Source: a virus
Length of the DNA stretch: 24,831 nucleotides
Direction: 5' to 3' (one strand)
Virus record (IMG/VR): IMGVR_UViG_3300046009_015234
Location: 1-24,831 of that record
Shown: one piece after another, positions 6,204 to 24,026 of the stretch
Layout of the letters: each line of letters opens with the position of its first letter
How positions within the stretch are numbered: position 1 is the first letter of the stretch
The notes under the pieces: generated by a model
Seen by the model: the letters and a program-made list of their open reading frames with translations, nothing else
Databases searched by the model: none
Told to the model about the DNA's origin: nothing
Position numbers and translations under genes: made by a program

Positions 6204-9200
6204 TTAATCCCCCTCTCCATCGCTTGGATGCGGCAATTCTCTAGACAAAACAAGTCTCATCATGTGACCATCACCCGTAAAAAGATGTTTTATTGTCGAT
6301 ACAATCCACTTACCAGAAAATCTTGAATACATGCCAGTTCCAAGTTTTTTAGCGTCAACAGTTACGACATCTCCCGTAACAAGATAAAAATCTCCAGGCA
6401 CATCTATAGTTATTTTATTTGAATTGAACAGTGCCATTTGTGCTGTTCTGTATAATGGTGCCTCTAATGGTGTTTCCCAGAAAGTGGCATTTGTCCTGTT
6501 ATACTTCATGTATAGGGGGAAATTTTTATTTATGATCGGACATATGCAATTATATTTGCTGTCTGGGTCATCCCAAACACAACCCAACCAAGATTCTCCG
6601 AATTGAGGGTGATTTTTTACCAAATTGCATTCAGAAAGAGTTTTTTCCAATTGTTTCAATTGGAGAGATGATGGTTCTTGTCCCCAATAATATTGAGGAG
6701 ATTTTGTGATTCCTACAAATTTATCTTCGTACATGTCCATCAAGTCTGGTCTCAAAACTATTTCATCTGGCATTTCACTACTAGGTTCAACATATGTTGA
6801 TAGTAGTTTTCCTTTGTTCTGACCTTTTCCTTGGCAGGGGCAGTTGCACAGGGGATCGGTTGGTGGGCATCCGGCTATTCCGGTAAATCCGTCCGGATTC
6901 ATACACTGGTATCCCTTACATCCGCCATCAACTTTAGACATAACAACAAATTGAGCCGAAAAATTGTTGTCAAAAATGGTATTTTGATACCAGTCTATGA
7001 GTTTATTAGATACCCATTTTTGGTACTCTTGAATTTTTTCTATCTCCCCGCCCACTCCTCCTATTAAAGATAACAAAGACGGCATTGAGTCCGAATTCAA
7101 TTGGACTAGACCGTATTGAGTTTTTCTGGAAATATCAAAATAATGAACAAGTTGATGATCGTAAAGCACACCCCCCGGATAGGTGTATGTGGAATTTAGT
7201 CCAGATCCCCATATTAAAGTTCCAACTGGATATGATATGGTATCATACGGTATCCTGTCCAATGCAGAAAGTCCTGCAAGATCTCGAATGTGTGGGAAAT
7301 TTGCAATTCTATAAACATAGTTTGATGGATCATTGGACAATACAGATGCAGTTTTCCCAGGAATAAATGTTGTGGTGCCTGCCGGTCCTGTTGCAAATTC
7401 TGCTGTTTGGAAAAGTTCCGAGAACGGAATAACAGCGGCATCAGATGCAAATGCACCGGAAATAAATTGTTCGGTGTCTGGGTGTAAGAACAGTGGCCAT
7501 GGTTTATCTGTAGGAGAACAAGAATCCCCACTCTGACCGGAACATCCTCCTGTATACAGGAAAGGTTCTGCTACTAATGCATTTTCAATATAGAATCCCA
7601 CTCCAGGACCGCCATATGATATTCCTGGACTTGTTTCACTTGCTGCTCTACTTATTCCAGTAACATCATGTCTATTGTAAAATGTAGATACAGCCATGGG
7701 AGGCAAAGATACCCACATATCCCACCATGTCTTAGCTGGGTAACTTCTCTCTAAAGCAGATGCCCTGAATATATCCTGTACTCCATTGGGAACGAAAAGA
7801 TCTGCAACACCGTCTTTTGGTTTATAAAAAAGTGAATTTTGATTTGTTTTCATCCAAGAAGAAGATGTTCCAAATGGAGTTCTTAGATCAGGATACGGTT
7901 TTTTATTTAGATCATTTTCTATAGCGTCTGGGACAAATTTTGCTTTAATATCATCTGTAAACATCAAATTCATATTTGCAAAATCATCTCTATTCTTTAT
8001 TTTCTTTACAGCTAAATCGAACCCAAAAGGATCTTGCCCGATAACTGCTATGTTTGTCCTTGCCGATTGTGCACCAAATGGTCCTGCCGTTGCCAGTACG
8101 ATATATGGCAAGAAATATTCACTTCCATGAGTATCGACAAACCCTTCAGGAAAATCCTGTAATGTTTCAGCTCCTATAGGCTGAGTAAATTCTACTCTGA
8201 CGAAACTTTCAAGTCCTTCGAGGACAAGATGAGGAGGAAGATCACCGTCATCAAAGTCATTTGTTCCTGTTATTCCTGGGTTTCTTTTAAATAGACTGGC
8301 TGATCTTTTGTAATTATTATAATCATCTAAACTAAATGATCCAGCCGGACCACATAACCCCGGCAATTCATCAGCTGCCCACGGGTGATAAAGTTTAACA
8401 CTAGAAGCAGGTTCAACATTCAATATTCTTATTTTACATCCATCGCAATTTTTTGAAAGTTGTGCGTGGGAATAATTTATTATTTGAACCGAACCAGATG
8501 TTCCTGGAGTTCCCTGTAAAATCTCAGCATTTTTATAATTTGCAAATGCCTCAAAATGCATATGAAGATCCAGATTTATTTCATCACAACTGCAATCTCC
8601 CTCAAAACATGGAGGTTGTCTGTTCAGACATGGTGGTTTTAATATTGTTATTCTGTATGAAACCAACCAGTTTCTATACCAAATAGGACCTTTCGGTCGC
8701 TCTTCACTGGCTTCGCTGTATGGAAACGCAGAATATGGATTTTCAAACGAAGACCAAAAATCTGCATTCCCCCCACCAACACCTAAAGCTCCGCTGTCAT
8801 ATCCTCTATTATAGTAAACATTTACTGCAGTGACACCACAAACATCGTTTCCATTATATGTGTTTATCGAATCTACAGAATTCATATACCCCAAATCATC
8901 CACATATGGGGGAACTTCATATGGATACATGCATGTTGATGTCGTTCCTGACCACAATGGATTTGCTACAGGGCTTGCTACCGGTTTACCATAATAATCC
9001 AGAGCTCCCGTGACACCTGGAACCATATTTCCAGCTAAAGGTTTTCTAAGAGCAAATGGCTCATATTTGCTTCCACGAATGGGTGTTCTTTTTATGCTTT
9101 TTATGTTGAATAAATTATTTCCGGAAGTAAGAAAAGTAGAAAAATCTATATTTCTAGAAAAGAAAAATGCTTTTCTTGACCAATACTTGGAATAAAGATC

Positions 9201-11438
9201 CTTAAATTCATTTTTTAGATGTTGAAGTTTAGCAATTATTGGATCTATTTGTGCATATATTTTATCTTCATGCAAAGAAAGTTCTTCATGTGCACCTACA
9301 ACCAAATTGACTTTATTTTGTACTGTTTCTGGATATTCAGTTGGACACAAACAGGTTCCGGTACATCCCTGTTGAAGACATACTTCATTTTTTGATTTAT
9401 ATGCAGCAGTATATCCAGAAGCTCCTTTGATATATTTGTCTTTTCTTATTTGTCTTGCTATTTTATTTTTTTCTAGGATTTGTTTTAATTTTTCGTGTCT
9501 TTTTATTTCAAGATCAAATCTGTATTTTACAAAATTATCCGGCTCTTTTTCTAGACTAAAAAATTCCCCAAGGCTCAAATTATATGGACTTTCGTTCAAA
9601 TTATAACTCAAGGTCAATCCACTCTTGGTCCATTCATTTTGAAATGTTTCGATTTCCCCTTCTTCATTTTCAAAAGTTATCCCAACTCCCACTTTAGAAG
9701 AGTCGTAATTCAATACATCACTGAACGAGCCAGCAGCAACTATTTCATACTGTGATAAATTTTTATCTCTCAGATTGAATGACTTTTCAAATTTTTCCGA
9801 TTTAAACTCAAAAGTGCTTCCAGGAATATTTGCAATTTCTCCTGGAGTTCCTGCTGGCAGGGTGGCTCCTGGTATATCACCTGCACAACAAATGGAACAT
9901 TTATAAACTTTCCATTTTTCTTTTAGATTTTTCAGCTTTGCATAAAGTTCTTGATTTTGTTTTAGTTTTTGTTTGATTTCCTTGTAAAGCCAGCGTACTC
10001 TATCTCCCTCAAGATCTGTTATATCAAATTGAGTTTGCCATAAAGTTTCTTCTTGTCTTGTAGAGTAATCATAACCATAATACTCCCATGGAACATTATT
10101 CTGCCGATTAAAAAACCCAGGAGAAAAATAACCATAATTTTTGTCGATTATGCGATTTTTTGAAATTGCTTTTGAAAATTTTTGTATTGCTGGTGAACCT
10201 GGAACGAAGGCTAATTGCCTTGACAAAGAAAATTGGACCTGTTCCGGTTGTTCCAATCTTGACCAATATTTGCCGTCTTCAATGTAATCATATTTTATTT
10301 CTTGGATTATATGAGCTTTTGCCGAATCAAGATACCTTGAATAAGGATCGTCGGTATATTTTGGTTCCACAAACACATAATTTGAACCATATGCATAAGA
10401 ATTCAACAACGCCAAATTGTCCATTTCGTCGGATGTTCTCAACAATCCTTCGGATATGTTATTGGATTTTAAATTCTGAATGGATTCCGCATAATTCATG
10501 TAACCAGAAAGAACATAATTTCTTGTTGGGGGGAGTTTTACCAATTTTTCAAGTGAGAAAAAATTCCAAGAATCAAGTGTTCTCCAAAAGAAAAAATTTG
10601 CTGCTTTTGTATTATTTGTTTTCCAATCCTTGTGTACAGCATTTTCGGCTAGCATCTGCACCAATTGATTCATTCTTGGGGGACTTGCCATTTTTCCCCA
10701 CGGATAAAAATTATAATTTCTTTTTAACCAAATCCAATTCAAAGCTTCTTCGTATTTTAAAGGGACTTCATTTAAGCCGTTGTTTTTTAATTGACCATTA
10801 AGACCATTAACTAAAAACTGAACCAGCCCTTCTCCTGTATATGGAACTCCCTCTTGTTGTTCCTCTTCCTCTTTTTTATTTTCCTCTTTTTTATTTTCTG
10901 TCTTTGAAATCGGTATTATCAAATCCTCTTTCAGTTCTAGGTTTTCATCTTGTTCTCCAAAATAATCAAAAAACAAATAATTCATCAATGCGAATTCCGG
11001 TGAAGCAAGTTTTAATGTGATTATTCTTGGTACTGTACTATTTGCATACAAAGAATTTGCCTCACCAGATTCTTGCGAGAATGCGTATATTAAAAATTGA
11101 AATTTGTAACTAGCTTCACTACCATCAGGGATTGGTAAACCATTTGTTACTTTTTCGGTTTCAAAAGTCAACTCTAGAATATCATAACCACCGATTCCTA
11201 AATACGGAAATACAACTTGACCGAAATTATTACCCAATCCGCTATAATCTCTTATCAATGCCTTTCCTTTTATGGTTGGCTCAAACATGCTCTCTTCTAC
11301 TTCAAGAGACATAACGCCAGCTGTCTTTGTGTCAGGATCTCTAAATCCTGCTGTGTTTAATAGAAATGGTGCGAGATTCTTATCAAGAGTGCTGAGAATT
11401 CTTGCATCTTTTAATCTAAACTTATTGACTTCACTCAT
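6204..11438 (-). CDS. Very large baseplate hub protein with cysteine-rich inserts
   Basis: This 1744-aa protein starts at ATG 11438, one base after the gp53 stop codon. Residues about 1-110 (KFRLKDARILSTLDKNLAPF, EVEESMFEPTIKGKALIRDY, LELTFET) and the last about 100 (FYLVTGDVVTVDAKKLG, SGKWIVSTIKHLFTGDGHMM, RLVLSREL) read like the two ends of a gp27/gpD-type hub protein. The roughly 1500 residues between are unlike any hub I know. They contain a Lys/Glu-rich linker (about 178-195), predicted helical or coiled-coil stretches (about 490-515, 640-720), and clusters among 28 cysteines near residues 510, 685, 870, 940, 1505-1535 and 1605-1635, with many CxC and CxxC pairs. By synteny it takes the place of T4 gene 5 after gene 53. 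I see no lysozyme catalytic motif. It is probably the central hub; the role of the inserts is unknown. Confidence 0.7.
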   Translation of the reverse strand: MSEVNKFRLKDARILSTLDKNLAPFLLNTAGFRDPDTKTAGVMSLEVEESMFEPTIKGKALIRDYSGLGNNFGQVVFPYLGIGGYDILELTFETEKVTNGLPIPDGSEASYKFQFLIYAFSQESGEANSLYANSTVPRIITLKLASPEFALMNYLFFDYFGEQDENLELKEDLIIPISKTENKKEENKKEEEEQQEGVPYTGEGLVQFLVNGLNGQLKNNGLNEVPLKYEEALNWIWLKRNYNFYPWGKMASPPRMNQLVQMLAENAVHKDWKTNNTKAANFFFWRTLDSWNFFSLEKLVKLPPTRNYVLSGYMNYAESIQNLKSNNISEGLLRTSDEMDNLALLNSYAYGSNYVFVEPKYTDDPYSRYLDSAKAHIIQEIKYDYIEDGKYWSRLEQPEQVQFSLSRQLAFVPGSPAIQKFSKAISKNRIIDKNYGYFSPGFFNRQNNVPWEYYGYDYSTRQEETLWQTQFDITDLEGDRVRWLYKEIKQKLKQNQELYAKLKNLKEKWKVYKCSICCAGDIPGATLPAGTPGEIANIPGSTFEFKSEKFEKSFNLRDKNLSQYEIVAAGSFSDVLNYDSSKVGVGITFENEEGEIETFQNEWTKSGLTLSYNLNESPYNLSLGEFFSLEKEPDNFVKYRFDLEIKRHEKLKQILEKNKIARQIRKDKYIKGASGYTAAYKSKNEVCLQQGCTGTCLCPTEYPETVQNKVNLVVGAHEELSLHEDKIYAQIDPIIAKLQHLKNEFKDLYSKYWSRKAFFFSRNIDFSTFLTSGNNLFNIKSIKRTPIRGSKYEPFALRKPLAGNMVPGVTGALDYYGKPVASPVANPLWSGTTSTCMYPYEVPPYVDDLGYMNSVDSINTYNGNDVCGVTAVNVYYNRGYDSGALGVGGGNADFWSSFENPYSAFPYSEASEERPKGPIWYRNWLVSYRITILKPPCLNRQPPCFEGDCSCDEINLDLHMHFEAFANYKNAEILQGTPGTSGSVQIINYSHAQLSKNCDGCKIRILNVEPASSVKLYHPWAADELPGLCGPAGSFSLDDYNNYKRSASLFKRNPGITGTNDFDDGDLPPHLVLEGLESFVRVEFTQPIGAETLQDFPEGFVDTHGSEYFLPYIVLATAGPFGAQSARTNIAVIGQDPFGFDLAVKKIKNRDDFANMNLMFTDDIKAKFVPDAIENDLNKKPYPDLRTPFGTSSSWMKTNQNSLFYKPKDGVADLFVPNGVQDIFRASALERSYPAKTWWDMWVSLPPMAVSTFYNRHDVTGISRAASETSPGISYGGPGVGFYIENALVAEPFLYTGGCSGQSGDSCSPTDKPWPLFLHPDTEQFISGAFASDAAVIPFSELFQTAEFATGPAGTTTFIPGKTASVLSNDPSNYVYRIANFPHIRDLAGLSALDRIPYDTISYPVGTLIWGSGLNSTYTYPGGVLYDHQLVHYFDISRKTQYGLVQLNSDSMPSLLSLIGGVGGEIEKIQEYQKWVSNKLIDWYQNTIFDNNFSAQFVVMSKVDGGCKGYQCMNPDGFTGIAGCPPTDPLCNCPCQGKGQNKGKLLSTYVEPSSEMPDEIVLRPDLMDMYEDKFVGITKSPQYYWGQEPSSLQLKQLEKTLSECNLVKNHPQFGESWLGCVWDDPDSKYNCICPIINKNFPLYMKYNRTNATFWETPLEAPLYRTAQMALFNSNKITIDVPGDFYLVTGDVVTVDAKKLGTGMYSRFSGKWIVSTIKHLFTGDGHMMRLVLSRELPHPSDGEGD

Positions 11439-13135: not shown

Positions 13136-13564
13136 ATGCCCTACAAAACTTCTTTTTTACCAAAAAATCCATCAAAATATGTAGGCGATTACCTAAAGAT
13201 AATATGCAGATCATTATGGGAAAGAAAATTTTGCAAATACCTGGACGAAAACGACTCAATTATAAGATGGTGCAGCGAAGAGTTGAGGGTTCCATATTAT
13301 TGCCCCGTAAAAAAGAAACCCTGTATGTATTACCCCGATTTTCTTTTTGAAGCCAATGAAAACGGTGAAATAAAGACTTATGTTGTGGAGATAAAACCAA
13401 AAAAACAAACTAAACCCCCAGAAAACAAAAAAAAGAAAAGCTTTGTTTCTGAGATGGCTACTTATTTGATAAATAATTCTAAGTGGGAATCCGCAAGAAT
13501 ATTATGCGATAAAAATGGGTGGCAATTCAAAATTCTCACGGAAGAGGATCTACACATAAAATGA
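13136..13564 (+). CDS. 4: Head-completion nuclease-fold protein gp4
   Basis: This 142-aa protein has the usual gp4 (gp50/65) length of about 150 aa. It carries a PD-(D/E)xK/TnsA-like nuclease core: E29 in SLWERKFCKYLDEN, D68 in YYPDFLFEAN, and E85-x-K87 in YVVEIKPKKQTKPPE. In T4, gp4 is needed to complete the packaged head before tail joining. The start at 13136 has no good Shine-Dalgarno, which is notable because its promoter and leader must lie inside the divergent tube-cap gene. The stop overlaps the next start (ATGA at 13561-13564), so the pair is probably translationally coupled. Confidence 0.85.
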   Translation: MPYKTSFLPKNPSKYVGDYLKIICRSLWERKFCKYLDENDSIIRWCSEELRVPYYCPVKKKPCMYYPDFLFEANENGEIKTYVVEIKPKKQTKPPENKKKKSFVSEMATYLINNSKWESARILCDKNGWQFKILTEEDLHIK

Positions 13565-14124
13565 GCCAATCCATAGACATGTTAAAAACTTTTATAGCCA
13601 CAGAAGGTGTCCAAGACAGCTCAAGATATACCGTTGCAATAGGAAATTATGTGTTCGACGAAAATGTAATTGCTGTTGATTTGCCTGGTCCAAGTTATGA
13701 ATTTTTGGACATAAATTATTGGCAAGGGAACCCGTTTTTCAAAATGCCGATTGGCGTAAAATTCAGAGAAAGTATTGTTATTCAACTACTTGTTCCGGAA
13801 AAAATTGATGGTGAATTGTTTAAATTTATCAATGAATACACAAGAGCTTTCTTTTTTATGAATAACGGTGGTTCGTTTTTTTATGGCGGCACGATTCCGG
13901 CTGACGCAGGCAGTTTTTCTGCCATAAGAACAGGAAATGCTCCTGGGGTTAGAATCCGAATTACAGCGTATAACAGAGTGAATGATGATCCTGTTAGAAC
14001 TTACAATTATAACAATTGTTTTCTAGAAAAAATTCTTCCCCTGAGATTCGAATCTGGAAAACCAGATCCACAAACATTAACAATGTCGTTTGTGGTATCT
14101 TCAATGGGAAATGACTCAAATTAA
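13561..14124 (+). CDS. Tail-tube-fold structural protein
   Basis: This 187-aa protein has ATG 13561 overlapping the gp4 stop as ATGA. An in-frame ATG at 13519 exists but lies deep inside gp4 and is not used here. The sequence shows the tube-protein layout: YTVAIGNYVF, AVDLPGPSYEFLDINYW, FFKMPIGVKFRESIVIQLLV, a short helix FKFINEYTRAFFF, then VRIRITAYNRVN, FLEKILPLRFESG and LTMSFVVSSM. This resembles T4 gp19 (163 aa) and the gp48/gp54 group. It stands just upstream of the chaperone-like frameshift pair, the place where long-tailed phages keep a tube protein. It could be the major tube protein or a baseplate-proximal tube ring; I cannot decide. Confidence 0.6.
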   Translation: MSQSIDMLKTFIATEGVQDSSRYTVAIGNYVFDENVIAVDLPGPSYEFLDINYWQGNPFFKMPIGVKFRESIVIQLLVPEKIDGELFKFINEYTRAFFFMNNGGSFFYGGTIPADAGSFSAIRTGNAPGVRIRITAYNRVNDDPVRTYNYNNCFLEKILPLRFESGKPDPQTLTMSFVVSSMGNDSN

Positions 14125-14145: not shown

Positions 14146-14856
14146 ATGATTTCTGATTTATTGAAAAATGCTCTTCCGACTTATGATGTATTCTTGCCGA
14201 TAACAAAGAAAAAACACAAATTTAGACCAATGACAGTCAGGGAAGAAAAAATTCTTCTTATTGCCCAACAAACAGGATCTATAAAGGAAATGGGATATGC
14301 ATTGGTCACGATCATAAAAAACTGCTTTTATGACATTCCAAACCCGGAAAATTTGCCGATAGCAGACGCAGAGCGGGCTTTTCTTGCTGTAAGAGCAAAG
14401 TCTATAGGTGAAAATGCAACATTCTATATTCGTTGTCCAGAAACACAAGAAACAGTGACCTCAAAAATAAACCTTGAAAGTTTTGATTTACCGAAACAAG
14501 ACAATTCGGAAATAAAAATAAAACTATCGGATGATATGGTTTTGGTCATGAAATATCCAACACTCAAATATCTGTGTGAGGAAGAGGAAGATGATGAAGC
14601 AAAGAAGCAGTTTAAACTTTGTTTTGCCGAATTGCAAACAAAAGATAACAGTGTAAAAAAGAACGAATTGACTGATGAGGAATTGAGTGATTTTTATGAT
14701 AACATGACATCACTACAGCTCAATAAATTTTTAGATTATCTTCAAACCACCCCAAGACTCAGAAAAACGATAACATACAAAACTAAAGATGGTCTGGAAA
14801 GACAATTGGAAATATATGGAATAGACAGTTTTTTCGCATTTGCCTCAGCCACATAA
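14146..14856 (+). CDS. 26: gp26-like baseplate hub assembly protein / tail assembly chaperone (zero frame)
   Basis: This 236-aa protein starts at ATG 14146 with AAAGG a few bases upstream. The N-terminus (PTYDVFLPITKKKHKFRPMT, VREEKILLIAQQTGSIKEM) and the RCPETQETVT segment fit the T4 base-plate family that includes gp26 (208 aa). In T4, gp26, gp28 and gp51 act in hub assembly and are not clear parts of the finished particle, so a chaperone role for the tape measure and hub is reasonable. The last codons contain T_TTT_TTC in the reading frame (14829-14835), seven codons before the stop. A -1 slip there would give a 288-aa product with the extension listed next. Confidence 0.75.
   Translation: MISDLLKNALPTYDVFLPITKKKHKFRPMTVREEKILLIAQQTGSIKEMGYALVTIIKNCFYDIPNPENLPIADAERAFLAVRAKSIGENATFYIRCPETQETVTSKINLESFDLPKQDNSEIKIKLSDDMVLVMKYPTLKYLCEEEEDDEAKKQFKLCFAELQTKDNSVKKNELTDEELSDFYDNMTSLQLNKFLDYLQTTPRLRKTITYKTKDGLERQLEIYGIDSFFAFASAT
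14829..14835 (+). promoter_or_regulatory. Slippery heptamer for programmed -1 frameshift
   Basis: TTTTTTC is in the X_XXY_YYZ register relative to the gp26-like frame (agT TTT TTC). Nine bases downstream, TCAGCCA (14845-14851) can pair perfectly with TGGCTGA (14914-14920), a 7-bp stem enclosing about 62 bases that could stimulate slippage. The structure is a suggestion by eye only. Confidence 0.6.
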
Positions 14857-15011
14857 GTGTTAGTGATTTTTACAAATTGAACTTTTTATTGGTTCAAATC
14901 TACAACTGGTCGTTGGCTGATATAGAAAGCATGATCCCTTGGGAAAGAGAAGTATATGTCGTGCAACTGAGGCAACATTTGGAAGAAGAAAAAAAGAAGA
15001 ATGAGAGATAA
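14835..15011 (+). CDS. -1 frame extension of the gp26-like protein (tail assembly chaperone C-domain)
   Basis: From the slippery heptamer 14829-14835 the -1 frame is open for 58 codons to TAA 15009-15011. The product includes DFYKLNFLLVQIYNWSLADI and ESMIPWEREVYVVQL, followed by a charged EEEKKKNER tail. No ATG or GTG start exists in this frame upstream of that conserved-looking part: the frame is closed at 14784, and the first ATG (a Met codon in ESMIPW) comes too late. Expression by frameshift therefore explains it best. The helix with Y-x-W-S and a downstream M-x-x-x-E is typical of the T-part of lambda G/GT-type tail chaperones. The pair sits between a tube-fold gene and the gene in tape-measure position. 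Alternative: initiation at the ATA overlapping the zero-frame stop (14853). Confidence 0.65.
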   Translation, partial: RICLSHISVSDFYKLNFLLVQIYNWSLADIESMIPWEREVYVVQLRQHLEEEKKKNER

Positions 15012-15014
15012 AAA

Positions 15015-16340
15015 ATGCCAGAAAAAATACAATATTCCTTCACTACAAAGGAAATAAAACCATCAAAGTCTAAATTCCCCCCAAAAATGGGGAAAAACCC
15101 AAATATCATAAAAAGTAACAATAAAAATGATAAAAAGGCAATGCCTGCAATAGATGGAAATTCAAACTCTCAGATGATAAGTGAATTTTGGAAAAATTAT
15201 TACAATGAAACAGAGAAATTTACGAAAAATCCTATTGCTCCAATAAATCTGACTGCACCAAAACCAAATGAAATTGTAAAACAAAAAGTCAGAGAAGCAA
15301 AACAATTTTCATACGCAAAAAAATATGCGTATGAAAATACACCAAATAAATCCACAATATTTCCAAAACCAAATGAATCGATGATCAAAGAATTGCCAAC
15401 TCAGACCAATTCAAAACCAAATACTTCCATAAAAGAATTGACTAGTCCAGTCAATTCAAAACCAAATACTTCCATAAAAGAATTGCCAACCCAGATCAAC
15501 GCAAAACCAAATACTTCGATAAAGGAATCGACGGCACAGATCAATTCAAAACCAAATACTTCCATAAAAGAATTGACGAGTCAAGGCAATCTTAAACCAA
15601 ATTCCACCGTAGATAATGTCTCTGATGAAAAATTAAGTTTTAAGTTATCTAAAGTATATGATTCAACAAAAACAGATTTCTCTAAAAATAATGAAATAAC
15701 AAGAGAAATAACACCAAAATCAAATATACCAAATATAAAACAAAATAAAGTTGAAAATTACAATTCTTCTTTAAGTATAAAGAATCCACAAAAAAATCAA
15801 GAAACAAATCAATATTTTTCGGATCTTCGCCAGAATTTTGAAAATAAAACAAACAATAAAGAACAAACACAATTTAATATATCACCAACATCAAACAATT
15901 CAACAGAAGAGTTAAATCAATCATTTTCTCCCAAACTGGATATTCCCAGAGTTTCAAGTGCAAATTTATTTTCAGATACGATAAAACCACAAAGTTTTAC
16001 TAATTTCAGTCAATTAAAAGCAAATTCTGAACCCATATCAACTCCAAATTATCCTTTGTTGCAGATGTTACCCAGTCCATTGAATGAAAACAAAGAAAAC
16101 TCCAGATCAATTGAAAAAATGAGAGATAACATCTATATCTCCACATTCAAATCATTGCCGACCCAAGAAAAATTAAAAGAGCCGCCACCCATGCAAGTAC
16201 AGTCCCAAGCAGCAAATTCTGGAAAATCATCTTCATATGGTGGTGGAAGTTCTGTCGTTATAAACAACATGGCCACCATTGATCAAACGATCATGGCGGC
16301 GGTCATGTTGCCTATTTGGAGACAGGGATTTGTTGGCTAA
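15015..16340 (+). CDS. Low-complexity repeat protein in tape-measure position
   Basis: This 441-aa protein starts 3 bases after the frameshift product's stop. It is very rich in Asn, Lys, Ser, Pro and Thr and reads as intrinsically disordered. Residues about 118-197 contain tandem 15-residue units of the type KPNTSIKELTSPVNS. The only ordered-looking parts are the N-terminal third and a hydrophobic C-terminus (INNMATIDQTIMAAVMLPIW) behind a Gly/Ser linker. Its place after the chaperone pair is where a tape measure is expected, but it has no long helix pattern and is shorter than T4 gp29 (590 aa), so it could instead be a hub-associated or flexible tail protein. The gene ends exactly at the hairpin shared with gp32 (16332-16356). 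No function assigned. Confidence 0.6.
   Translation: MPEKIQYSFTTKEIKPSKSKFPPKMGKNPNIIKSNNKNDKKAMPAIDGNSNSQMISEFWKNYYNETEKFTKNPIAPINLTAPKPNEIVKQKVREAKQFSYAKKYAYENTPNKSTIFPKPNESMIKELPTQTNSKPNTSIKELTSPVNSKPNTSIKELPTQINAKPNTSIKESTAQINSKPNTSIKELTSQGNLKPNSTVDNVSDEKLSFKLSKVYDSTKTDFSKNNEITREITPKSNIPNIKQNKVENYNSSLSIKNPQKNQETNQYFSDLRQNFENKTNNKEQTQFNISPTSNNSTEELNQSFSPKLDIPRVSSANLFSDTIKPQSFTNFSQLKANSEPISTPNYPLLQMLPSPLNENKENSRSIEKMRDNIYISTFKSLPTQEKLKEPPPMQVQSQAANSGKSSSYGGGSSVVINNMATIDQTIMAAVMLPIWRQGFVG
15414..15593 (+). repeat. Four tandem 45-bp coding repeats
   Basis: Four in-frame 45-base units encode KPNTSIKE followed by a variable 7-residue half (LTSPVNS, LPTQINA, STAQINS, LTSQGNL). A diverged 16-codon unit precedes them from 15366, and a decayed one follows. 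Synonymous and non-synonymous differences between units show they are not freshly copied. Confidence 0.85.
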
Positions 16341-20849: not shown

Positions 20850-23800
20850 ATGAGAAATTTTTATAATCAACAGCCTAATAGAATATTTGATAAGATGTTT
20901 AGAAAAGGGGCTCGACAATTACAAGCAGACCCCACTTTAGATTTAACAAAATGTAAATGTTGTCAATGTGATAAACTTGAATGTAAAGGATGCATGCAGG
21001 GACATATTGTAACTCAAAGTGATGGTTGTTGTCCGTCAAAAAACGAAGCTTTGATATTTGAATACGAAAGACCATATTGGCCTGCTCCAGAAGGCCCGGA
21101 ATGCTGTCCTGGAAATTATTTTTGCTGTAATCCAGAAAATCCACCTGAAGCATGTGGTTCTAATTGTTTTAATGATAATGGAGAAAGAATTTGTCCTTTT
21201 TGTGTTGGTAGTCCGGCACAATTTATTGGAGATCCGGACGCTAACTATACTTGTTTACTGCCCGGTGGTTGCAGACAATTAACTCCTGTATCGAGATGTT
21301 GTAATCGTTCAAAATTAGAAGAATCAAATGTAAGATTTTATTATAATTACATAGGAAAATACTTTAAAATTGAATATGAACCAACAGGAAGATATACAAA
21401 TGGTAGAAGAAATATAACCTCAAGACTATGTTCTTATTGTGATCCAACCAGTGTTACAGAAACAATAGGAAGTGATTGTGGCAATCCAAATTATGATTAT
21501 GAAAATTCTTGTTTAGATTATTCTACTGGTTCACAACCAGATGGTATGGAAAATGATGCTCTTTGTTCATCTGAATGTGGTGGAATTGTCAGTCCATGGT
21601 ATAACTGTCAATGTATGGGAAGTGGTCAAAGAAAAGATACGCTGGGTCCTCCTGATCCTGGTCCAAGAGGAAAAAGACTTTCAAAATACAGAAGAAGACA
21701 GATGGAAGGAGACCCATATTACATGTGGCTCCTGGATATCATGTGTTATGATGAGGGAAACATTCAATTTAATCCTGCTCTTGAATTTGAATATACAATA
21801 GGACAGTCTGAAGCTACTGTACGAGAACACTTTAACGGAACACTTTATGAGCATTTAGTCGGGGTTGTTCACTGTGAACACTGGTATGAATTAGCTCATT
21901 GTGATTTAAATCCCGAACATAACGATCCTAATGGAATAGTCGGTGGATGGCTAGATGATCCACAAAATCCAGGCACTCCATTAGGATACAATACATCAAA
22001 ATTAGCTCCTAGATTTTGGATATATTCTTGTTCTGGAGTTCCTTTGTTTGACTTCGAAATACAAGACGCAGTTGAAAGAGGTTATATTTCAGAAACAGAT
22101 AAAAGAAGAATACATTTAGCATTTGCACAAAAACTAACACCCCCACAAGAAATAATGAAAAAACTTTCTGCTGGTGGTTATTTGGATGTTGGTGATTGGA
22201 GACAAGAAGCTAGTTCTGAACTTAGAGCTTTAAGGGGCAATACATTTACAGCTCCTGCTTATGGTGGAATAATAAATGGAGATCCCAATATAGGATCTTG
22301 TTGTGTTGGAAATACATGCGCAGGTGAGACTTCAGCTCAATATTGTGAATTTACTGGTGGTAACTTTTTTCCGGCGACCACATGCAGTGAATCTTTTTGT
22401 AGCAGTCAATTTTGCTCTCAAATGAAATATTTGGGTCCAGTAAGAAAAAGGTGGGCAATTAATCCTTCTTTTATTTTAGCAGTCCCCCCAGAATATCCTG
22501 ATCCAATCATGGAACCAAACATTTCAAACCCATTAAAAGCCAGACCAAACATTGTTTCTGTACCTCCTCCCTCTGCAAGAATGGAAAGATATCCTCAAGG
22601 TAGACAATTTGAATCTTTACAACTTCCGACAGATTTGATAAGAGATCCGTGGAATGGTGGTCCATATCCTTTACCTCCAGCACCGGGATCTGAAGAACCA
22701 GAAACTCCAGAATATAAAGCTTTTAAATTATGGAGAGATACACAATGGGTTTACATGCATGCAAGACCCGGAGGATGGTCTTATGTCTGTGGTGGATATA
22801 ATTTTGGTGCCGGACCAGGAGAAATAAATTTAGATGTAAAAATACCAGATCTTCCAAGATTCAGAGGTAATGGAAGTTTTCTTGGTTGTTTAGATGGTCT
22901 TATGGGAGTACCACAAAGAAACGGTCCACTCCAACAATGTATAGTTCCAGAAAATATTTGTGATGAATGTATATTAATAAAAGATGGATTTGATGAAGAA
23001 GGAAATCCAATTTTTAGAGAAGAATGTACATCACCAATTCAAGTAGAATGTTTAGAAGCTGCAGAAGGAGGACCATCTTGTGTTGGATTAGAATGTTATG
23101 GATCTGATGTTTGTAAAGATTATTGGGAAATTGGAGGCGGAGGTACTCCGTGTAGTAATTTGTCATTAAAATCAAATTGTGACGGTATCAGATTCATGTA
23201 TTATACACAAAGATACTTGCCGAATAGAGGATATGAATGTGCAAGAAAAATAGATTCATATTTGTACAAAGTAAATGTCACTACCGGTAATTATGGAAAT
23301 TTTTGCCCTCATATGTGCAGAAATTTACAAATACCAAGAGAAATAGCAAATGCAGTTCCAAATCTATTTTCAAATTCTATAGCACATAGAGAAATATGTG
23401 ATCAAATTCAAAATAGAATATTGGGTGGAGGGCAACCAGATACATCTGATATGTGTCCATCGAGTTATTGTTTTGCTTCTGCTGGATGTAAAAATCCCAC
23501 ACTAGATTATGGCCCGGAAGGATGTAGATGTTGTGATCCAAGAGTAGATGCCCCTGAACACAGTCCTCCTCCACTTCATCTTCCTACACACAGGGCTTCT
23601 TCTAGAGAAAATTGTCCTTTTTATCCTGGAGCAGGTTGGCCTTTCATATATGATGGTCAATTTTTGGGAACTCCAGTTGATTTTAATCCTGTAGGATGTT
23701 GTTGGAAATGCACGATGAATAATGGTGTTCCTGTTCCAGATACTTACAAAGGAATAAAAACATATTTTGAATGTTATCAGTTGCAACCAGAAAATATTAT

Positions 23801-24026
23801 AGCTTTTGATAATTATGTTGTAACAGGAAGAGGATTTATTTATCCCGATTCTATTAATAGTATATCGACCGATTGTCCGCAAATATGGGCTGGAGAATGT
23901 GCGTGTGGCACAAATTCTCCTGGGAATGTTCCACCAGCATCCGGAGGCGAATCGTGTGAACCAGATAGTGGAGGAGGTCCCCCTGGCGGAGGCGGTCCCC
24001 CCGGTGGTGGTGGTCCTTCTCCGTAA
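20850..24026 (+). CDS. 1058-aa cysteine-rich protein, probable virion component
   Basis: ATG 20850 is preceded by AGGA at 7-base spacing. The protein has about 70 cysteines (6-7 percent), many as CC, CxC or CxxC. They are densest in residues 34-160 (CKCCQCDKLECKGC, ECCPGNYFCC, ICPFC), with further groups near 485-525 (GSCCVGNTC ... CSESFCSSQFC), 700-780, and 860-960 (EGCRCCDP, VGCCWKC). The CC-x4-C...C...GG...C...C unit near residue 485 resembles small repeats in surface proteins of some aquatic bacteria. There is no signal peptide or membrane helix. The C-terminus is a Gly/Pro tail (GGGPPGGGGPPGGGGPSP). Codons are AT-rich (AGA, GGA, GAA) like the tail genes, which suggests late expression. 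Metal-binding or disulphide-stabilised structure after lysis are both possible; function unknown. Confidence 0.65.
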   Translation: MRNFYNQQPNRIFDKMFRKGARQLQADPTLDLTKCKCCQCDKLECKGCMQGHIVTQSDGCCPSKNEALIFEYERPYWPAPEGPECCPGNYFCCNPENPPEACGSNCFNDNGERICPFCVGSPAQFIGDPDANYTCLLPGGCRQLTPVSRCCNRSKLEESNVRFYYNYIGKYFKIEYEPTGRYTNGRRNITSRLCSYCDPTSVTETIGSDCGNPNYDYENSCLDYSTGSQPDGMENDALCSSECGGIVSPWYNCQCMGSGQRKDTLGPPDPGPRGKRLSKYRRRQMEGDPYYMWLLDIMCYDEGNIQFNPALEFEYTIGQSEATVREHFNGTLYEHLVGVVHCEHWYELAHCDLNPEHNDPNGIVGGWLDDPQNPGTPLGYNTSKLAPRFWIYSCSGVPLFDFEIQDAVERGYISETDKRRIHLAFAQKLTPPQEIMKKLSAGGYLDVGDWRQEASSELRALRGNTFTAPAYGGIINGDPNIGSCCVGNTCAGETSAQYCEFTGGNFFPATTCSESFCSSQFCSQMKYLGPVRKRWAINPSFILAVPPEYPDPIMEPNISNPLKARPNIVSVPPPSARMERYPQGRQFESLQLPTDLIRDPWNGGPYPLPPAPGSEEPETPEYKAFKLWRDTQWVYMHARPGGWSYVCGGYNFGAGPGEINLDVKIPDLPRFRGNGSFLGCLDGLMGVPQRNGPLQQCIVPENICDECILIKDGFDEEGNPIFREECTSPIQVECLEAAEGGPSCVGLECYGSDVCKDYWEIGGGGTPCSNLSLKSNCDGIRFMYYTQRYLPNRGYECARKIDSYLYKVNVTTGNYGNFCPHMCRNLQIPREIANAVPNLFSNSIAHREICDQIQNRILGGGQPDTSDMCPSSYCFASAGCKNPTLDYGPEGCRCCDPRVDAPEHSPPPLHLPTHRASSRENCPFYPGAGWPFIYDGQFLGTPVDFNPVGCCWKCTMNNGVPVPDTYKGIKTYFECYQLQPENIIAFDNYVVTGRGFIYPDSINSISTDCPQIWAGECACGTNSPGNVPPASGGESCEPDSGGGPPGGGGPPGGGGPSP

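Follow-up and report, generated by a model that had tools for sequence, protein, structure and literature searches.

The window analysed here is the complete IMG/VR record IMGVR_UViG_3300046009_015234 (24,831 bases, 37% G+C). It comes from an uncultured T4-like phage, and gp6-, gp25-, gp53-, gp4-, gp32- and late-regulator-like genes are among the neighbours of the locus under study. On the plus strand, a gp26-like ORF of 236 amino acids (14146..14856) matches the Pfam family PF12322 (T4_baseplate; 2.1e-44, residues 11-231 of 236) and phrog_150 (baseplate hub; 1.2e-46). Its 3' end is overlapped by a second plus-strand frame in the -1 register (14835..15011, 58 codons and a stop), which corresponds to the C-terminal domain of gp51 and matches phrog_634 (baseplate hub assembly catalyst, gp51; 1.1e-20, model positions 56-112). 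The upstream gene on the same strand (13549..14124, with an alternative GTG start possible at 13519) is probably tail-tube-like; its match to the tail tube family phrog_45 is weak (E 0.0013), and the same family matches the gene directly upstream of gp26 in nt-1, P-SSM2, HTVC008M, and phiM19 at 1e-39 to 1e-41.

Downstream, a plus-strand ORF of 441 amino acids (15015..16340) with low complexity and 45-bp tandem repeats occupies the region of the tape-measure-like genes of HTVC008M and phiM19; Pfam and PHROG profile searches gave no family match for it. A tape measure may lie downstream of gp26 in phiM19, from weak matches, and in HTVC008M, from annotation. About four copies of the 45-bp repeat lie at 15387-15602, inside this ORF and 3' of the extension. 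Promoter and terminator signals between the two frames were at chance level. Elsewhere in the window, an ORF of 1,744 amino acids (6204-11438) is located between the gp53- and gp25-like genes, and its C-terminus alone best matched the tail family phrog_350; a cysteine-rich ORF of 1,058 amino acids at 20850-24026 has no PHROG match.

The slippery heptamer T_TTT_TTC is found on the plus strand at 14829-14835, in register with the gp26-like ORF (AGT TTT TTC at 14827-14835), and six sense codons follow it before the 0-frame stop TAA at 14854-14856. The -1 frame reads from CGC (14835) through 15008 and ends with the stop codon at 15009-15011. In front of the slip site, this frame is open for 15 codons that include no ATG, GTG, or TTG, and its first ATG in the window is codon 33 of the extension. 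The heptamer, the 58 open codons, and the missing upstream start had all been reported in a preliminary description of this DNA, and all three were confirmed; the extension, described there as chaperone-like, can be named more specifically as gp51-like from its phrog_634 match. Two features of a tandem-slip -1 frameshift, an X_XXY_YYZ heptamer in register and an overlapping conserved -1 frame, are present. An open frame of 59 codons has a chance probability of about 0.8% at the composition of the window. By itself, the heptamer is no rarity in the window, as T_TTT_TT(C/T/G) occurs in register 7 times in the 7,496 codons of the main ORFs, and XXXYYYZ patterns number about 80 in these ORFs.

To compare the locus with its relatives, sequences were taken from an annotated phage collection, from 80 IMG/VR records matched with a profile of the extension, and from 25 IMG/VR records matched with the window's own extension. 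In the joint analysis of 99 loci, T_TTT_TT stands at the same codon in 98, with C as the next base in 85, T in 11, and G in 2; these are not independent trials since the loci share ancestry. The 98 loci span the window clade, cyanophages, a pelagiphage, a methylophage, Vibrio nt-1, Aeromonas AS-szw, and rhizobial phages. It is because of this conservation that the site stands far above chance. In the 98 loci, the 0-frame stop lies 0-8 codons past the slip and the -1 frame is open for 57-69 codons, so that the alignment of related phages proposed earlier bears out both the heptamer and the open frame. In the second and closer set, the heptamer is at the same codon in all 25 loci. The gp26/gp51 loci of Kyanoviridae, pelagiphage, Mylasvirus, Aeh1-like phages, Emdodecavirus, and Pootjesviridae share with the window the heptamer, its codon, the open -1 frame, and the gene order; however, the 0-frame stop follows the slip after 0-1 codons in most of these loci and after 6-8 codons in the window clade. 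The stretch from slip to stop encodes conserved protein in both frames, and its DNA is near-identical in seven members of the window clade.

The wobble positions have their own control in the same sequences. In an alignment of 97 gp26 genes, AGT, TCT, GAT, or AAT precedes the slip, always with T as the last base, and the first Phe codon of the slip is TTT in every gene. Apart from the third bases of the two codons with which the heptamer starts, every wobble position in the alignment varies. Selection therefore acts on the nucleotide run itself.

Overall, the comparison indicates that the locus is very probably a single gene with two products, the second of them made by programmed -1 ribosomal frameshifting. 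Most ribosomes would stop at 14856 and yield a gp26-type short chaperone (TAC-N), whereas a minority would slip on T_TTT_TTC and yield a fusion of 288 amino acids, the last 58 residues of which would form a gp51-type C-terminal domain. We infer the slippage, its rate, and the function of the proteins from this comparative evidence. If the two proteins behave as other tail assembly chaperones do, the short one would coat the tape-measure or hub protein during tail assembly, and the long one would provide the link to it.

The homology to the T4 proteins accounts for the whole length of the proposed fusion. T4 gp51 begins with a gp26-like domain and ends with the C-terminal segment that is also found in the extension. 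In hhalign comparisons, residues 14-284 of the 288-residue conceptual fusion align with the T4 gp51 set (2.5e-22), and its part before the slip aligns with the T4 gp26 set (3.9e-22). A relationship between the two T4 sets is also seen (2.5e-20), and Pfam PF12322 matches T4 gp26 and T4 gp51 alike. The proposal that a frameshift makes a gp26 fusion is strongly supported by the alignment with gp51, together with the phrog_634 match and the conservation of the heptamer. In T4, the counterpart of the short form is gp26 and that of the fusion, over its length, is gp51, but the two are encoded by separate, divergently transcribed genes with no slip, whereas the window has one gene with a slip site. 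These alignments likewise indicate that EcS1, IME13, avDM2, and Margaery, as T4, have two genes where marine, Vibrio, some Aeromonas, and rhizobial relatives have one gene and the slip site. The kind of relative that would contradict a frameshift, with the extension as a gene of its own and no slip site, was not encountered, since the T4-type phages encode the entire fused form as a gene. T4 and its close relatives thus produce the same two proteins from the paralogous genes 26 and 51, and one reading of this pair is a duplication that took the place of recoding.

The preliminary description went further and identified gp26 and the extension with the G/GT system of lambda. The architecture, the tube gene upstream in relatives, and the literature agree with a functional link; common descent did not emerge from the comparisons. 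In lambda, G and GT (PF06894, PF06223) are a short and a long form made by a -1 slip and encoded between the tube and tape-measure genes, an arrangement that the locus here appears to share, and the gene order V-G-T-H is resembled by the tube-gp26-extension neighbourhood of the relatives. A short and a long form with a common N-terminal domain are found at the level of sequence. By its architecture, the locus would therefore work like lambda G/GT. It is also conceivable, although rather unlikely, that the gene has two products of which the long one is a T4-type hub assembly factor, unrelated by descent to the lambda-type chaperones, so that the likeness to G/GT is convergent. Such convergence is consistent with the lack of sequence homology to lambda G or T (hhalign probability 0.1-0.2%) and with a PDB fold search that gave no match below E 0.5 for the confident AF2 model of gp26 (pLDDT 92.8). 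The same arrangement beside a tube gene argues against it, as do two entries in the non-significant PDB fold list, 3FGX (third) and HK97 2OB9 (21st), which are both described as tail assembly chaperones (PMC9603447). Matches among predicted viral structures were mostly other T4-like gp26 proteins, the PDB sequence search with gp26 profiles gave chance matches only, and a search of NCBIfam returned nothing useful.

Published work bears on the same question. The title of Vladimirov et al. 2022 reportedly names T4-like tail assembly chaperones (gp26/gp51) as identified, which also speaks against convergence. That T4 gp26 and gp51 are tail assembly chaperones is therefore already published and is not new here. 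According to a summary of that study in a passage of PMC10885494, some T4-like phages have a short gene and a separate long fusion, and a passage of PMC12846349 refers to it on the poly-T signals for a -1 shift in TAC-N genes of T4-like phages. The TAC locus of Vandenendeviridae and Andersonviridae (PMC12846349), which belong to a phage lineage different from that of the window, is similar in the description of its slip site, a conserved GTTTTT close to the end of TAC-N at which the -1 shift takes place.

A second alternative is that the extension is translated on its own as a small gene, in line with its gp51 annotation in cyanophages, from a start within the -1 frame, so that it would overlap or abut gp26. 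Such an annotation is found in many GenBank records, and an ATG at codon 4 or 7 of the extension is common in cyanophages, in which gp51 is annotated from starts in this stretch. However, no ATG occurs in the first 15 extension codons of 18 loci, one of which is the window's. In addition, the -1-frame residues directly after the slip are conserved (F in 98 of 98 loci, R/L, I/V/L, L/M, and H in 93 of 98) and precede any usable ATG. Since the ATG is not conserved and conserved residues lie ahead of it, a separate start is unlikely as a general rule. The invariant wobble positions of the heptamer and the presence of both domains in the single chain of T4 gp51 also disagree with a small gene, which we consider highly improbable; a separate gp51 start was rejected as its start codon is not conserved among the loci. 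The one locus that needs such a start is S-SCSM1 (L016:2480-2530), the only one in which TTTTTTC is present but extra bases follow and shift the extension one frame off, either by a sequencing error or by a real switch to a separate start. Finally, chance, with a T-run of an AT-rich genome falling next to a fortuitous open frame, has a negligible probability, as has a sequencing error splitting one gene, even though the heptamer alone is not rare, given its conservation among phages whose protein identities are about 20-35% (for gp26, identity to the window falls to about 20% across the sampled isolates), the known family of the extension, and the identical sequence in two further IMG/VR contigs.

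With programmed frameshifting as the preferred reading, annotation of some relatives can be revised. Aeromonas phage Aeh1 was reported in 2010 without gp51 (PMC3037559). The slip heptamer is present in both Aeh1 (L136:2501-2665) and Cronobacter phage S13 (L137:2501-2656), each with a gp51-type -1 extension that lacks annotation. The absence of gp51 from Aeh1 therefore looks like an annotation gap, and what marine phage records list as short 'gp51' genes probably does not represent separate genes.

The elements that may stimulate slippage appear to differ between groups. A perfect 7-bp pairing that begins nine bases past the heptamer had been pointed out, between TCAGCCA (14845..14851, plus strand) and TGGCTGA (14914..14920, plus strand). 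The complementarity is real, but the pairing is not conserved: all seven pairs are found in the window and one other member (L114) of the clade, and the other five of its seven members keep 4-5 of 7. The 5' arm is invariant in the clade, although it lies inside the dual-coding sequence. The fold of the stem was no better than chance (z = -0.9), and no consensus structure was detected downstream of the slip among the seven clade members. A stem-loop was rejected as the stimulator on these three grounds, and since it is not conserved the stem is unlikely to be a general one.

Most of the 97 genes have a GGAGGG-like sequence about 9 nt upstream of the heptamer, for example in a cyanophage-type locus (L007:2480-2498). 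In cyanophage-type loci, the Shine-Dalgarno (SD)-like stretch about 9-14 nt upstream of the heptamer has biased synonymous codons. Across the 97 genes, its conserved Glu column is GAG in 73% of cases, the highest of 21 Glu columns and compared with a median of 28% in the others, and GGG in its Gly column and NTG in its Leu column also rank first among comparable columns. Of these genes, 78 have a predicted anti-SD pairing that reaches -6 kcal/mol, compared with 8% of background blocks. The element is not shared by the window (-3.3) or by the clade members tested (-4.0 to -5.6), which sets this clade apart from the cyanophage types. In E. coli dnaX, an internal Shine-Dalgarno-like element stimulates slippage. 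By analogy, the SD-like element may stimulate slippage in the relatives. One possible scheme, to which we give about even weight for and against, is that the cyanophage-type slip is driven by GGAGGG about 9 nt upstream and an immediate stop, that the window clade lost or never had this element and retains a longer dual-coded overlap, and that in the T4-type phages a gene duplication took over from the shift altogether; stimulators would then turn over while the heptamer remains fixed.

The site in the window is a real and well-supported, but ordinary and largely expected, example of its kind. The additions made here are how widely the slip site is conserved, the case against the stem, the SD-like element, and the correction for Aeh1, any of which may already be contained in Vladimirov et al. 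2022. In practice, annotation improves, and a clean set of loci becomes available in which stimulators of the slip can be tested. For the family, the comparison suggests that nearly all sampled T4-like phages outside the T4-type group use a tail-chaperone frameshift.
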